Origin: Peribacillus simplex NBRC 15720 = DSM 1321
GTDB taxonomy: Bacteria; Bacillota; Bacilli; Bacillales; DSM-1321
Direction of reading: 5' to 3'
Assembly: GCF_002243645.1 (NCBI RefSeq)
Contig: NZ_CP017704.1
Coordinates: 783,501-847,500 of the forward strand
DNA: 64,000 bases
Shown one piece after another: positions 25,959 to 44,211 of the stretch; positions within the stretch are counted from its first letter, which is position 1, and each line of letters starts with the position of its first letter. The notes beneath the pieces were generated by a model that saw only the letters and a program-made list of their open reading frames with translations, made no database searches and was not told the DNA's origin. Both the position numbers and the translations under genes were made by a program.

Positions 25959-26598
25959 TTATTGTTGGCGTTTGAATTTTTCCAATATGTTTTTATTTGT
26001 ACTTGCTGCAACCGGTGCCGGTTGTTCTTTTTTACGCAACCTTGCAAGGATACTATTTTTGTATTCCTCTGAATCAACTGTTTCTTCTTTTACTTCTTTT
26101 ACTTCATTTTCTTCATCTGCTAATCCTACATCCATAGCTTCATTAGAAGTGAACCATGTATCATTTTCAATCAATGTAACAATTTCAGAACGTTCTCCTT
26201 TGAATCTCGTCATGTAAATATCAGCAATTGACTTATCGATTCCTTCAAGAGCATTTAAGGTCTTTTTGATATCAGCCTTGGTTCCCCAGGCAACTGTAGA
26301 AGCTTCATGTATCATATCATCATAGAACCTGTATTCATGATTAATTTATCAGCTGCCCTTGCAATTAATGAAGCTGCTAACCCGTCGACTTGAACGATAA
26401 TTTCTGCTGAATGGTTTTTCAATTAATTGTAAATAGCTATCCCATCAAATACATCTCCGCCGCCGCTGCTGAGCTTAACTGTAATGGTATCTGATGTGAT
26501 GTTTTTCAATTCCCTTTCAACATCAACTGCAGAAGTAGATTCATTCCAACATGAATCACCAATGTCGCCATAGATAGTTAACGTTGAGATCATTTTTG
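25959..26598 (-). pseudogene. Phage ClpP-like prohead protease, broken
   Basis: Pieces in order on the minus strand read STLTIYGDIGDSCWN and KLSSGGGDVFDGIAIYN, then after an in-frame stop IIVQVDGLAASLIARAADKL with the nucleophile Ser. After a frameshift near 26310 follow MIHEASTVAWGTKADIKKTL with the catalytic His and a long C-terminal tail. This is the ClpP-type protease used by phages to process capsid. One stop and one frameshift make it inactive. It is fused upstream to a DNA-ligase fragment. Confidence 0.75.
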
Positions 26599-26735
26599 TG
26601 GCGAGTATACAATTTAATCTGATCATCAAACTTAGAAAAAATTAAACGAATTCCATCAAGCTTCAGTTCAGTAATGAAATCATTGTCCTCGAAGGGTTGC
26701 TCTGTTTTGTGCAAGAGCATTGGAGAAATAAACAA
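26590..26735 (-). pseudogene. ATP-dependent DNA ligase N-terminal fragment
   Basis: After a GAGGTG ribosome-binding site, TTG 26735 begins FISPMLLHKTEQPFEDNDFI, then TELKLDGIRLIFSKFD and KLYTRHK. KLDGIR is the nucleotidyltransferase KxDGxR motif whose Lys is adenylated. The gene ends after about 45 codons where ClpP-type sequence takes over. This is a deletion junction between two phage genes. Confidence 0.65.
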
Positions 26736-26995
26736 AGTTACCACCTCAAGATAATTGTAACACTTATAAAACAATATTCTCTGAGGTAGATAATGTAAAA
26801 TCAAATGGAAAATTATTGATAAATCCATTTTTTCATACATAAATCCCACCTGTCTTTAGTATCAAAAATCAAAATAGGGAGAGTGCTCATTCATTTTTTG
26901 AAAATGTTCATATAATAGGAATCAGGGATAATTGTCCAAAAGAATGCGACCTTGAAAAGTAACTTAAAGTATAGCAAAAAAGGAGTAATATTTTT

Positions 26996-28141
26996 ATGTC
27001 TTATCACGATGATTGTTGTAAAAAGAAAAAACGCTGCCATTATGACCATCACGATGATTGTTGTAAGAAGAAGAAACGCTGCGATTATGACCATCACGAT
27101 GATTGTTGTAAGAAGAAGAAACGCTGCGATTATGACCATCACGATGATTGTTGTAAGAAGGAAAAACGCTGCCATTATGACCATCACGATGATTGTTGTA
27201 AGAAGGAAAAACGCTGCCATTATGACCATCACGATGATTGTTGTAAGAAGAAGAAACGCTGCGATTATGACCATCACGATGATTGTTGTAAGAAGAAGAA
27301 ACGCTGCGATTATGACCATCACGATGATTGTTGTAAGAAGGAAAAACGCTGCGATTATGACCATCACGATGATTGTTGTAAGAAGGAAAAACGCTGCGAT
27401 TATGACCATCACGATGATTGTTGTAAGAAGAAGAAACGCTGCGATTATGACCATCACGATGATTGTTGTAAGAAGAAGAAACGCTGCGATTATGATCATC
27501 ACGATGATTGTAAGTGTAAATTAGAAAATATTCAATTCCAACTTCAACAACAGCAACAAAAACAAGAGCAACTTCAGGCTCAATTCCAAGCTCAACTTCA
27601 GGCCCAGACTCAAAATGATACCGATACTATTTCAAATGTAGGTAATCCAGTTGTGAATGTAAATGTATCCAATGATACTTCATCAAATGGCCGCTCTATT
27701 CCACAAACTAATTCAGCTTTTAGTGCAGCTACCCAAGGTTCAACCGTTCTTCAACCACTAGCTGGAACACTTCCTTTAGCTAAGGTATTTTTTCCAAATG
27801 AACTACTTGACTTAGAAAATGAATATGACCCATCTACTTCTACCTTCACCGCAAAAAATTCAGGTGTATATCTTTTTATTACATCTCTTAATTTTTCCCC
27901 TGATCCTACCGGGGTTCCTTATCAGGTTCGAGTTCAAATTCAAGTTAATGGTTCATCAGTCGGTACTGATGATGAATTTACTAGAGGCGATTCTGGTGAT
28001 TTCACTCTAGTTAGTGCCAAAGTGAATTTAAATGCCGGAGATACCGTAGAAGTTTTTGCTTCAAGTACAACTCCGGGTGTCCTTTTGCCAGGGAAAGCAA
28101 CTCGCTTTGAAGGAGCTAGATTCCCGTCTCCTACAGCATAA
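26996..28141 (+). CDS. Cys/Lys/His/Asp repeat protein with C1q/BclA-like domain
   Basis: The 381-residue protein follows AAAAAAGGAG. Residues 7-171 are eleven tandem copies of a 15-residue unit, CCKK(K/E)KRC(D/H)YDHHDD, giving 33 Cys and 25 His. Next comes CKCK and a Gln-rich, probably coiled-coil segment (about 176-208), a Ser/Asn-rich linker, and a C-terminal beta-rich domain (about 245-381; TFTAKNSGVYLFITSLNFSP, QVRVQIQVNGSSVG, NLNAGDTVEVFAS) resembling the C1q/TNF-like trimer domain of BclA. There is no signal peptide, as for spore-surface proteins made in the mother cell. I infer a spore-surface or metal-binding, disulfide-crosslinked filament. A CATATAATA (26909-26917) resembles a sigma-K -10 box, but no -35 is clear. 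No close described homologue comes to mind for the repeat part. Confidence 0.8.
   Translation: MSYHDDCCKKKKRCHYDHHDDCCKKKKRCDYDHHDDCCKKKKRCDYDHHDDCCKKEKRCHYDHHDDCCKKEKRCHYDHHDDCCKKKKRCDYDHHDDCCKKKKRCDYDHHDDCCKKEKRCDYDHHDDCCKKEKRCDYDHHDDCCKKKKRCDYDHHDDCCKKKKRCDYDHHDDCKCKLENIQFQLQQQQQKQEQLQAQFQAQLQAQTQNDTDTISNVGNPVVNVNVSNDTSSNGRSIPQTNSAFSAATQGSTVLQPLAGTLPLAKVFFPNELLDLENEYDPSTSTFTAKNSGVYLFITSLNFSPDPTGVPYQVRVQIQVNGSSVGTDDEFTRGDSGDFTLVSAKVNLNAGDTVEVFASSTTPGVLLPGKATRFEGARFPSPTA
27014..27508 (+). repeat. Eleven 45-bp tandem repeats
   Basis: Eleven in-frame 45-bp units encode the 15-residue repeat. Variants occur as identical neighbours: units 2-3, 4-5, 6-7, 8-9 and 10-11 are pairs, with types KD, EH, KD, ED, KD, and unit 1 is KH. 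This points to expansion by 90-bp dimers. The high identity makes length variation between strains likely. Confidence 0.95.
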
Positions 28142-28329
28142 ATAAAAAAGGCATAAATATGAGTAATGTTACAGACTAACCAGGAAAAGTTGGTTATAGC
28201 AGTGAGTGCGGTAGAGGTACCTACATTCACTCCATCTACCATTCCGGTTTTTTTGCATCTAGATTTTGGGTTTATGCCAATTAAAGAACATAAATAAAAA
28301 AATCCTGTTCAACCAAGGTGCGTAAGTTC

Positions 28330-28855
28330 TTTAAAAGATAAAAGGGATGGACAGATATAGATTTAAAAGAACAAACCATTTTCTATAACAAAGACTCTAG
28401 ATTTTAAAGCTAAATCCAAACAAGAACTGTTTGGCGATCCAAAAACATTTAATTCTAAGCGGGTTATTTCTATTAGCCAGACACATACTCAAGTGCTTCA
28501 ACATCACCTTCGGCATCAAAACCAACATAAACTTACCTTGAATGAATTATACCACCATGATCTAAATCTAGTACTGTGCAGGGATGATGGCAGCTTCATG
28601 CCAAAGTCTACTTTATTTAATGCATTCAGTCGTATCCTAAAAAAAGCTGAGTTGCCTTCTCTTCCCATCCACTCCTTACGTCATACACATGCAGTGCTCC
28701 AACTAGAAGCTGGAGCCGATATGAAATATGTTCAGGAAAGATTAGGTCATGGCAGCCTTGCTATTACTTCTGATGTTTACGCCCATATAAGCAAAAAACT
28801 CGAAAAGAAAAACATGGACAAGTTTGAAGAATACACCAAGGCAATAATCGATTAA
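28330..28855 (+). pseudogene. Tyrosine integrase, truncated and frameshifted (inner copy)
   Basis: From about 28336 the codons read GWTDIDLKEQT, shift frame near 28380 and continue ITKTLDFKAKSKQELFGDPK, then a long frame to SLRHTHAVLQLEAGADMKYV, QERLGHGSLAITSDVYAHIS and KKLEKKNMDKFEEY. The catalytic Arg (RHTH), His/Lys region, LGH and Tyr (VYAH) of the tyrosine recombinase are all present. The arm-binding and core-binding N-terminal domains are missing. It ends 116 bases before the glnA-proximal att repeat, the position expected for an integrase of an element inserted in glnA. Confidence 0.85.
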
Positions 28856-28881
28856 ATTTTTCGATAAATTTGGTGGACAAA

Positions 28882-28929
28882 TGGTGGGCAAATATCTATT
28901 TCATTTATTTAACTTAGATTTGCCCACCA
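28882..28929. repeat. Inverted repeat between integrase and att
   Basis: TGGTGGGCAAAT (28882-28893) and ATTTGCCCACCA (28918-28929) are perfect 12-bp arms. They may form the integrase terminator or arm-type integrase sites. Confidence 0.7.
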
Positions 28930-28936
28930 AATAAAA

Positions 28937-28966
28937 AAACCCTGACACCAGAGGTGCCAAGGGTTT
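28937..28966 (-). terminator. Terminator of glnA
   Basis: AAACCC...GACACC and GGTG...AAGGGTTT pair imperfectly around AGA, and a T run follows on the minus strand. It begins six bases after the glnA stop and was probably supplied by the integrated element. Confidence 0.75.
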
Positions 28967-28970
28967 GAGA

Positions 28971-28987
28971 TATTAATACATTGACAT
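28971..28987. repeat. Inner att-like repeat at the glnA 3' end
   Basis: TATTAATACATTGACAT covers the last codons (MSMY) and stop of glnA and is identical to 18641-18657. Integration here would regenerate an intact glnA. Confidence 0.75.
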
Positions 28988-43755: not shown

Positions 43756-44211
43756 TTAGATTTCCTCCGGGATTTTCAATCCCTCAATAAAGGATTTAAA
43801 ACTGGATGCAACTTTATAAATATTTTCATCCTGGCTTGATGGATCTGAATACCAACCCTGATCCCAGAAGTAAACTCCCTTTTCCTCTTCGTTATTTATC
43901 AGCAAGATTTTACCTGCACATGTATCATTACCTATTATAATGCAATTCTTATGTAAGTCTTTTCTGTTTTCTTCATGCCATTTCTGTAAATCCCGTTCTT
44001 TATCTTGAAGCTCTAATCCATAAAGTACATTTAAGCAAACGAGTGTGTCTAATCCATCCACATAAAACTTACAGTTTTGAACCGCAGTTGTGCCGCCATT
44101 ATACTTAAGTAGAAATTGTTTATAATCTGCAGGGATTTCAAAACCCACAAATTCCTGAAAATTATTCACTGCTTCTTGTGTCGCTTTGCCATATCCAGTA
44201 ATATTCACCAT
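43756..44211 (-). CDS. SMI1/KNR4 (SUKH) family protein
   Basis: This 151-residue protein has the SUKH pattern: an N-terminal FQEFVGFEIPADYKQFLLKYNGGT, then a mixed strand region, IIIGNDTCAGKILLI and a final YKVASSFKSFIEGL. Many bacterial SUKH proteins are immunity proteins against polymorphic toxins. No toxin gene is nearby, so it may be an orphan immunity gene or have another role. It stands alone with its own terminator. Confidence 0.85.
   Translation of the reverse strand: MVNITGYGKATQEAVNNFQEFVGFEIPADYKQFLLKYNGGTTAVQNCKFYVDGLDTLVCLNVLYGLELQDKERDLQKWHEENRKDLHKNCIIIGNDTCAGKILLINNEEEKGVYFWDQGWYSDPSSQDENIYKVASSFKSFIEGLKIPEEI

Follow-up and report, generated by a model that had tools for sequence, protein, structure and literature searches.

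A Cys/His-rich repeat array joined to a C1q-type head in Peribacillus simplex, a putative modular spore-surface protein

Introduction

The spore-surface filaments described in the papers cited here use collagen or endospore appendage (ENA) polymers. CC motifs are noted in S- and L-ENA subunits and in the connector of L-BclA, and the combination of collagen and DUF4183 is named F-Anchor (excerpt of PMC11952670). Disulfides between BxpB and ExsY are proposed in the excerpted text of PMC10470788, and the repeats of CotG are presented as a spacer between its termini in that of PMC9765600. In the genus Peribacillus, a spore exosporium was reported in 2024, the first to its authors' knowledge (PMC11602404, in part). 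The gene described here belongs to P. simplex NBRC 15720 = DSM 1321. It lies in a stretch of 64,000 nucleotides, the window (contig NZ_CP017704.1, positions 783,501 to 847,500), and is called the window gene (open reading frame, ORF, 26996-28141, + strand). Its product consists of a Cys/His-rich repeat array, a Gln-rich linker and, at the C-terminus, a C1q-type head. A preliminary description of this DNA, made from its letters, had suggested a protein with a BclA-like domain that forms a spore or exosporium filament with a metal-binding or disulfide-linked stalk. Below, genomes are designated by G-numbers and loci by L-numbers; G000 is the genome of P. simplex itself and G000:C1 its chromosome contig.

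Architecture of the window protein

The window gene (26996..28141, +) is complete, starts with ATG and encodes 381 residues. Tandem Repeats Finder gives a single array in it (27003-27511, period of 45 nt, 11.3 copies, 96% matches), whose score of 920 is the top of five rows in the 64 kb; the remaining four score 57-66. Counted residue by residue, residues 4-168 (27005..27499, +) form 11 full 15-residue units of the type HDDCCKK(K/E)KRC(D/H)YDH, directly followed on the same strand by a partial twelfth unit, HDDCKC, which ends at 27517. Every full unit has three Cys and two to three His, exactly as the preliminary description claimed, together with four to five basic (K/R) and three to five acidic residues.

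The units are nearly identical: only 4 of the 15 codon positions vary, two of which change the residue (K/E, D/H) while the other two are synonymous. The amplification is therefore recent and the array young, and runs of two alike units suggest that it may have grown by stepwise block duplication. Further reading frames across the array are likewise open, because the 45-nt period is a multiple of 3. Only the frame of the window gene runs on into the linker and the C1q domain and persists in diverged relatives. A Shine-Dalgarno-like AAGGAGT (26980..26986, +) is located 9 nt before the ATG, and GGAGT is also present 5' of the start in the relatives L007, L009, L010, L012 and L020.

The Gln-rich segment LENIQFQLQQQQQKQEQLQAQFQAQLQAQTQ (residues 176-206; 27521..27613, +), whose presence after the repeats had been noted previously, is a putative helical oligomerisation segment. 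It is followed by a conserved connector, NDTDTISNVGNPVVNVNVSNDTSSN (27614..27688, +), which is kept in L009, L010, L011 and L012. The linker, which comprises these two parts, is 87-95% identical to that of five other aligned copies of the same family, hereafter family A (over 22 residues only for L020). Another locus of the P. simplex chromosome (L040 6190-6846, about 5337.7-5338.3 kb of G000:C1) encodes a 218-aa protein which matches no Pfam family and has three Gln-rich segments, LENIQ.QLQ...QQQK. These are 80-82% identical to the window linker at the DNA level, and the protein is perhaps a partner with a common oligomerisation segment.

The head (27719..28138, +; C-terminal end FEGARFPSPTA) is assigned to Pfam C1q. 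The cut-off of this family (PF00386, 23.7 bits) is passed both by region 27509-28138 (25.2 bits) and by the full window protein (24.1 bits), whereas the match to BclA_C stays below its cut-off (22.2-24.4 vs 38 bits). The BclA-like C-terminal domain of the preliminary description thus stands as a C1q/TNF-type head as in BclA, recognised by Pfam C1q and not by BclA_C. A low-confidence structure model, made from the single sequence, resembles 1wck and 2z5w. The window protein has no match to Pfam Collagen, DUF4183 or PF10612 (CotY/CotZ/ExsY), and a search with the protein and its parts matched no NCBIfam family. Its N-terminal part has no NCBIfam match and no significant Pfam match; whether either library holds an exosporium-leader model was not checked.

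Three families of Cys/His arrays in the genus

Relatives were sought in 36 Peribacillus genomes (genus sample), 43 genomes of the family and 397 of the order. The linker and/or the head are matched in 10 of the 36 genus genomes: seven carry family A, at eight places, and three carry only another family, B. The number of units per family-A copy ranges from 0 to 11. Headless ORFs made of array and linker are found in G019 (first copy, 5 units), G020 (6) and G001 (8; manual counts), and G001 keeps head remnants downstream of its ORF. The second G019 copy and those of G027 and G009 are remnants. The L009 copy (G028) has no full unit, and its MSYHDDCC goes straight into the linker. Its linker is 88% identical to that of the window protein and its head only 46%; with the family-B head, the identity is 49% for L009 vs 34% for the window head. 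A conserved linker with a differing head is what one would expect if heads were exchanged while the N-terminal part stayed fixed.

The genome of P. simplex contains three kinds of Cys/His/Lys/Asp array protein, A, B and C. Its family-B copy (G000:C1:1269277-1269831, L002/L039) lies within a 357-aa ORF which has about seven 20-residue units of the type DQKKPDDCHCCHKKHNDCIC, then a C1q head with a Cys-rich insert (24.0 bits for the Pfam C1q family). Family B is present in 8 of 36 genomes of the genus and 8 of 43 of the family. The eight copies counted have 2 to 10 units, which are non-identical within arrays; a frame break divides the G008 copy. In G000, a Coat_X gene (Pfam, 143 bits) is found 4.6 kb from family B, and by eye the loci L041 and L042 contain it too. 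About 16 kb from family B lie a gene for a CotH kinase (300 bits) and an ORF which by eye is CotG-like and matches no Pfam family. The neighbours are alike in the three loci inspected (L039, L041 and L042).

Family C consists of headless arrays with units of about 14 residues. It occurs in P. simplex (G000:C1, 3769 kb; L151 7042-7953, - strand), in P. frigoritolerans (L008) and in G001 (L115), and G007 encodes in identical form the 265-aa array protein which L008 represents in P. frigoritolerans RU293. A gene of the YjcZ sporulation family (Pfam 41 bits, TIGR01732) lies 1.5 kb from the array in L008, with one gene between them, and one is also visible by eye in L151 and L152. Spore genes are therefore found near both families B and C. 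A conserved Cys-containing protein of about 260 aa also adjoins the family-C arrays (L151 8015-8794, -; L008 7109-7894, +). It has no Pfam match over cut-off; a weak SipL/SPOCS match (E 0.08) is seen for L151, and no Pfam or NCBIfam match for L008.

Matches coding for HxDCCKK are found in 10 of the 36 genus genomes, with zero in the backward control. Seven genomes of the order sample have such a match, and only G000 and G001 have more than one. No Cys-rich array was seen at the loci of the single matches in five genomes outside the genus; the backward control likewise gives one match each in seven genomes (manual count), so that the matches outside the genus are attributed to chance. Family B and HxDCCKK co-occur (8/8 genomes vs 2/28, p = 1.5e-6), but the family-B genomes are probably one clade and this is not independent evidence. 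At a contig edge of G009, L156 (1-368, -) encodes a repetitive protein rich in Tyr, Lys, Cys, His and Trp with a DCCKK motif, which by eye we take to be like CotC-like coat proteins.

Although the units differ, the composition of the stalks is similar. The window stalk (175 aa, 35 Cys) has C20% H15% K24% D25%, and the family-B stalk of the same genome (172 aa) has C20% H15% K19% D15%. All eight family-B stalks (72-227 aa) are in the range C14-21% H13-17%, the six family-C proteins in the range C16-22% H8-21%, and the stalks of families A and B taken together have 14-27% Cys and 8-20% His (L012, which could not be split cleanly, is left out, and the L009 value is that of 11 residues). One composition with different units argues for a bulk property (cross-linking, charge balance or metal) rather than a folded domain.

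Upstream region

The sequence CATATAATA (26909..26917, +) upstream of the window gene resembles CATAnnnTA, the -10 type of the mother-cell sigma factors. The same motif is found upstream of 6/6 family-A copies (the remnants L013 and L014 being left out), 6/8 family-B copies and 0/5 family-C copies examined, and the L009 version differs only within the free nnn. No clear -35 element was identified upstream. Shuffles of single regions give the motif with probabilities of 0.03-0.10, and copies of one family are not independent of each other; the motif is therefore suggestive only.

The head subfamily on other stalks

The head belongs to a subfamily (SAFRA...QFDLANEYNP...FEAARFPSP) which is found in 46 of the 397 order genomes at E 1e-4. 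The stalk types were judged by eye at 28 of these loci (L064-L091). At most 55 residues precede the head in 21 of them. In L072, whose head passes the C1q cut-off, the collagen stretch ahead of the head is long (364 residues); in L081 and L089, the collagen-like runs ahead of it are short. In L066-L069 (G275, G228, G316, G203), the head is preceded by 119-129 residues with Glu/Trp/Tyr-rich repeats (EEDxxEESxxWxYGR, by eye). A single HHDDCC is present near the N-terminus in L064/L179, and the Bacillus arachidis plasmid copy L178 has a Tyr/Lys/Asp-rich N-terminus with DCCKK; neither has an array.

A tree of 24 heads is weakly resolved and shows no clustering by stalk type. The four heads of families A and B, including L009, split from the collagen-borne L072 and L081 in 0% of 200 bootstrap trees, and shuffled labels do equally well. 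The window head joins L082 and L111, a head from a Priestia plasmid, in a weak grouping (82/90). Head relatives are found on 28 plasmid records, 27 from Priestia and one from Bacillus. One of them, which passes the C1q cut-off, is carried by pBM600 of P. megaterium QM B1551; according to the excerpted text of PMC4674009, strains without pBM600 have no exosporium, while an essential role of pBM500 is not excludable.

In G029, L167 (1992-2765, -) encodes an F-Anchor-like protein with a Cys-repeat N-terminus, in which Cys repeats (by eye) are followed by collagen (57.7 bits) and DUF4183 (75.9 bits). It adjoins a headless family-C gene with an HHHDCCKKK array. In G003, L104 has a short Cys-rich stretch, then what by eye is collagen, and a region whose BclA_C score of 26.2 bits is below cut-off.

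No collagen match is over cut-off in the P. simplex genome (one reaches 24.1 vs 27.2 bits), a search in which the short profile could miss unusual repeats. The one BclA_C match of this genome is a remnant (G000:C1:1741262-1741683; L063, L176) which is interrupted by a stop and whose collagen triplets are spread over more than one frame, and the 24.1-bit collagen match lies beside it. Elsewhere, BclA_C matches are in open frames of 425 (G011), 542 (G022) and 628 aa (G032). Mutual exclusion of collagen-type BclA and family B was considered and is not supported (BclA_C over cut-off in 1/8 vs 5/28 genomes, Fisher p = 1).

Genomic context and mobility

The window gene sits at the 3' end of glnA, between two Clp-protease-like ORF fragments and an integrase fragment whose end adjoins glnA. 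The former (25959..26315 and 26423..26629, both -; Pfam CLP_protease 39 bits, and 13 bits, which is below cut-off) are perhaps prophage remains; the latter is the C-terminal part of a phage integrase (28493..28855, +; Phage_integrase 49.5 bits) and belongs to the mobile context. Blocks 26873-27679 and 28009-28971 are found side by side at another chromosomal site in G001 with 80-83% identity, and most of the head falls in the unmatched gap between them. This bears out in part the earlier view of the gene as cargo of a glnA island. G027 has a family-A remnant beside glnA, and other copies have as neighbours riboflavin genes (G019 and G020, by eye) or a cupin gene (identified by Pfam in G001 and by eye in G019). 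Since the copies are at differing chromosomal places, the unit has moved. Region 28142-28330, considered as a dispersed repeat, is single copy in the P. simplex genome. Further along the window, 43756-44211 (-) encodes a SUKH/SMI1-KNR4 protein (71.6 bits); SUKH proteins are often reported as immunity proteins.

Proposed function and alternatives

The reading which we favour, and consider somewhat probable, is that of a modular spore-surface protein in which the array is an N-terminal disulfide anchor and a C1q trimer is displayed. The mother cell would make the protein late in sporulation. Three chains would trimerise via the C1q head, with the assistance of the Gln-rich segment, while the N-terminal array would be disordered and sticky. 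Its cysteines would form disulfides among themselves and with adjacent Cys-rich components of the outer coat or exosporium, metal bridging being possible, so that the trimer would be fastened to the spore with its head, which may be adhesive, facing outward. The length of the array would set the reach and the number of links, and the heads would be exchangeable. This reading is built on the architecture with its near-identical units, the paralogous arrays and the spore genes near families B and C, the agreement in stalk make-up between A and B in G000, the variable unit number, the head recognised by sequence and the differing head on a kept linker. It also draws on the L167 protein, the broken BclA_C/collagen remnant in a genome with no collagen match over cut-off, the head relative on pBM600, the CC motifs of ENA subunits and L-BclA, and the disulfides proposed between BxpB and ExsY.

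The preliminary description had put the repeats in place of the collagen stalk of BclA. The head subfamily does occur on collagen elsewhere; however, the array starts at residue 4, where BclA has its anchor. Together with the Cys repeats, collagen and DUF4183 of L167, this points to an anchor of variable length rather than a simple collagen replacement. Similarly, arrays which are headless (family C) or stand ahead of collagen and head (L167) are not simply collagen's place-holder. The metal or disulfide role which it gave to the repeats is plausible. A BclA-like protein of the spore surface agrees with our own reading, and an exosporium filament may be its form.

Several observations weigh against a spore-surface anchor. 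Only two of the eight family-A copies, the window gene and L009, have a head, the others being three headless ORFs and three remnants, which may mean that the head is dispensable or that the family is in decay. CATAnnnTA is absent from 2/8 family-B and 5/5 family-C upstream regions, and dinucleotide shuffles of the same 150 nt give the site by chance in 4-10% for family A. Some related heads miss the C1q cut-off (L009 23.6, L066 20.6, L064 19.5 and L111 17.0 bits), and the full-length family-B protein L042 matches no Pfam family at E 0.01. PF10612, the expected Cys-rich partner, has no match in the P. simplex genome at E 0.01, and none of the direct neighbours of the window gene was recognised as a spore-coat gene. 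The family-B stalks vary so widely in length that the equal lengths of A and B in G000 may be a coincidence. Finally, the stalk could be reduced and metal-bound instead.

Indeed, a metallothionein-like stalk, in which the array holds Zn, Cu or another soft metal, so that the protein stores or buffers it on the spore or is stiffened by it, would suit the three Cys and two to three His per 15 residues (together 35% of the window stalk), and the maintenance of both residues in the stalks of families A and B. We regard it as unlikely, because relatives differ at several His, at the first Cys of the CC pair and sometimes at the third Cys (HDDYC, HDDGC, KRRD for KRCD, ETHDD) and keep no fixed four-ligand spacing, which speaks against a strict metal site. 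The only Pfam match to the array is an insignificant zinc finger (E 3), and Lys and Asp, which are poor soft-metal ligands, are as abundant as Cys. It is quite unlikely that the protein forms the tip or base of an ENA, its CC N-terminus docking on the fibre and its C1q head being the tip, as in L-BclA and F-BclA: one CC pair would be enough for docking, and the array has eleven; nor did any ena gene attract notice in the vicinity of the window gene, although no search of this genome was aimed at ENA subunits. The near-identical units, their variation from 0 to 11 between relatives, the six family-A copies of eight that are headless or remnants, the adjoining integrase fragment and the recurrence at different chromosomal sites would all be expected if the array were a selfish or decaying repeat, a minor HDDCC motif enlarged by slippage in a mobile element's accessory gene and without lasting function. 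This is very unlikely in our view, since the frame, the linker and the composition have been maintained, the conserved family B has non-identical units and the same neighbours at the three loci inspected, and A and B units differ yet match in composition within one genome. It is highly improbable that the gene encodes a vegetative cell-surface or secreted adhesin or a fibre protein of phage origin. It does lie between Clp-like fragments and one of a phage integrase, and the 50 tied structural matches of the low-confidence model include three chains of phage fibres or spikes; however, no signal peptide was seen by eye, the paralogs lie near spore genes, and no match was found in 50,697 phage records nor any relative in viral contigs with a single head as query.

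Beyond the spore-surface anchor itself, a broader proposal can be made, tentatively: in the P. simplex/frigoritolerans group, Cys/His/Lys/Asp arrays may be a general, repeatedly evolved attachment or stalk material able to replace collagen. The 14-, 15- and 20-residue units would have converged in composition, slippage would tune the unit number, heads (C1q, DUF4183 or none) would be swapped, and the product would be a layer or nap cross-linked by disulfides and/or metal, and in at least one of these genomes the collagen-type BclA gene would be in decay.

Comparison with known systems

The C1q head and the idea of a modular spore protein made of anchor, stalk and head are already known. What is new is the material of the stalk, which seems to have evolved repeatedly within a single genus. 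No description of a Cys/His array fused to a C1q head was found in the open-licence PMC papers searched, in agreement with the preliminary description, which knew of no protein of this design.

Like BclA and its paralogs, the window protein has a C-terminal C1q/TNF-type head after a repetitive low-complexity N-terminal part; unlike them, it has no collagen match, its Cys/His array begins at residue 4, and BclA_C is below cut-off. It is not established as an ortholog of BxpB/ExsFA: BxpB, as described in the excerpted source, has 167 residues, no array and only two Cys, both in the N-terminal 19 residues. The SAFRA-type C1q proteins of Bacillales plasmids and chromosomes share the head subfamily, and some have a single HHDDCC or DCCKK. 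They have no array, and are annotated as hypothetical proteins or ABC transporter permeases.

Low-complexity tandem repeats are also found in CotG-like coat proteins, whose gene lies beside cotH on the chromosome. No cotH was recognised among the window ORFs read, and the window repeats are not positively charged as those of CotG are: the array is near charge-balanced, Cys/His-rich, N-terminal and followed by a C1q head.

The F-Anchor/F-BclA and L-BclA systems are modular assemblies of anchor, stalk and head, with a CC motif in the L-BclA connector according to the excerpted source, and the Cys repeats, collagen and DUF4183 of G029 are a parallel to the F-Anchor. The window protein differs by having no collagen or DUF4183 match. 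If a C1q head is indeed carried by an array made up of Cys/His units alone, spores would have a solution other than collagen or ENA polymers to the same problem, a cheap, length-tunable and oxidation-hardened tether. The families give concrete candidates for the spore nap of Peribacillus, and their natural series (0 to 11 units, varied heads, headless forms) suits testing the roles of repeat number and head. For spore display or the capture of metals, they would also be a module that is ready to use.
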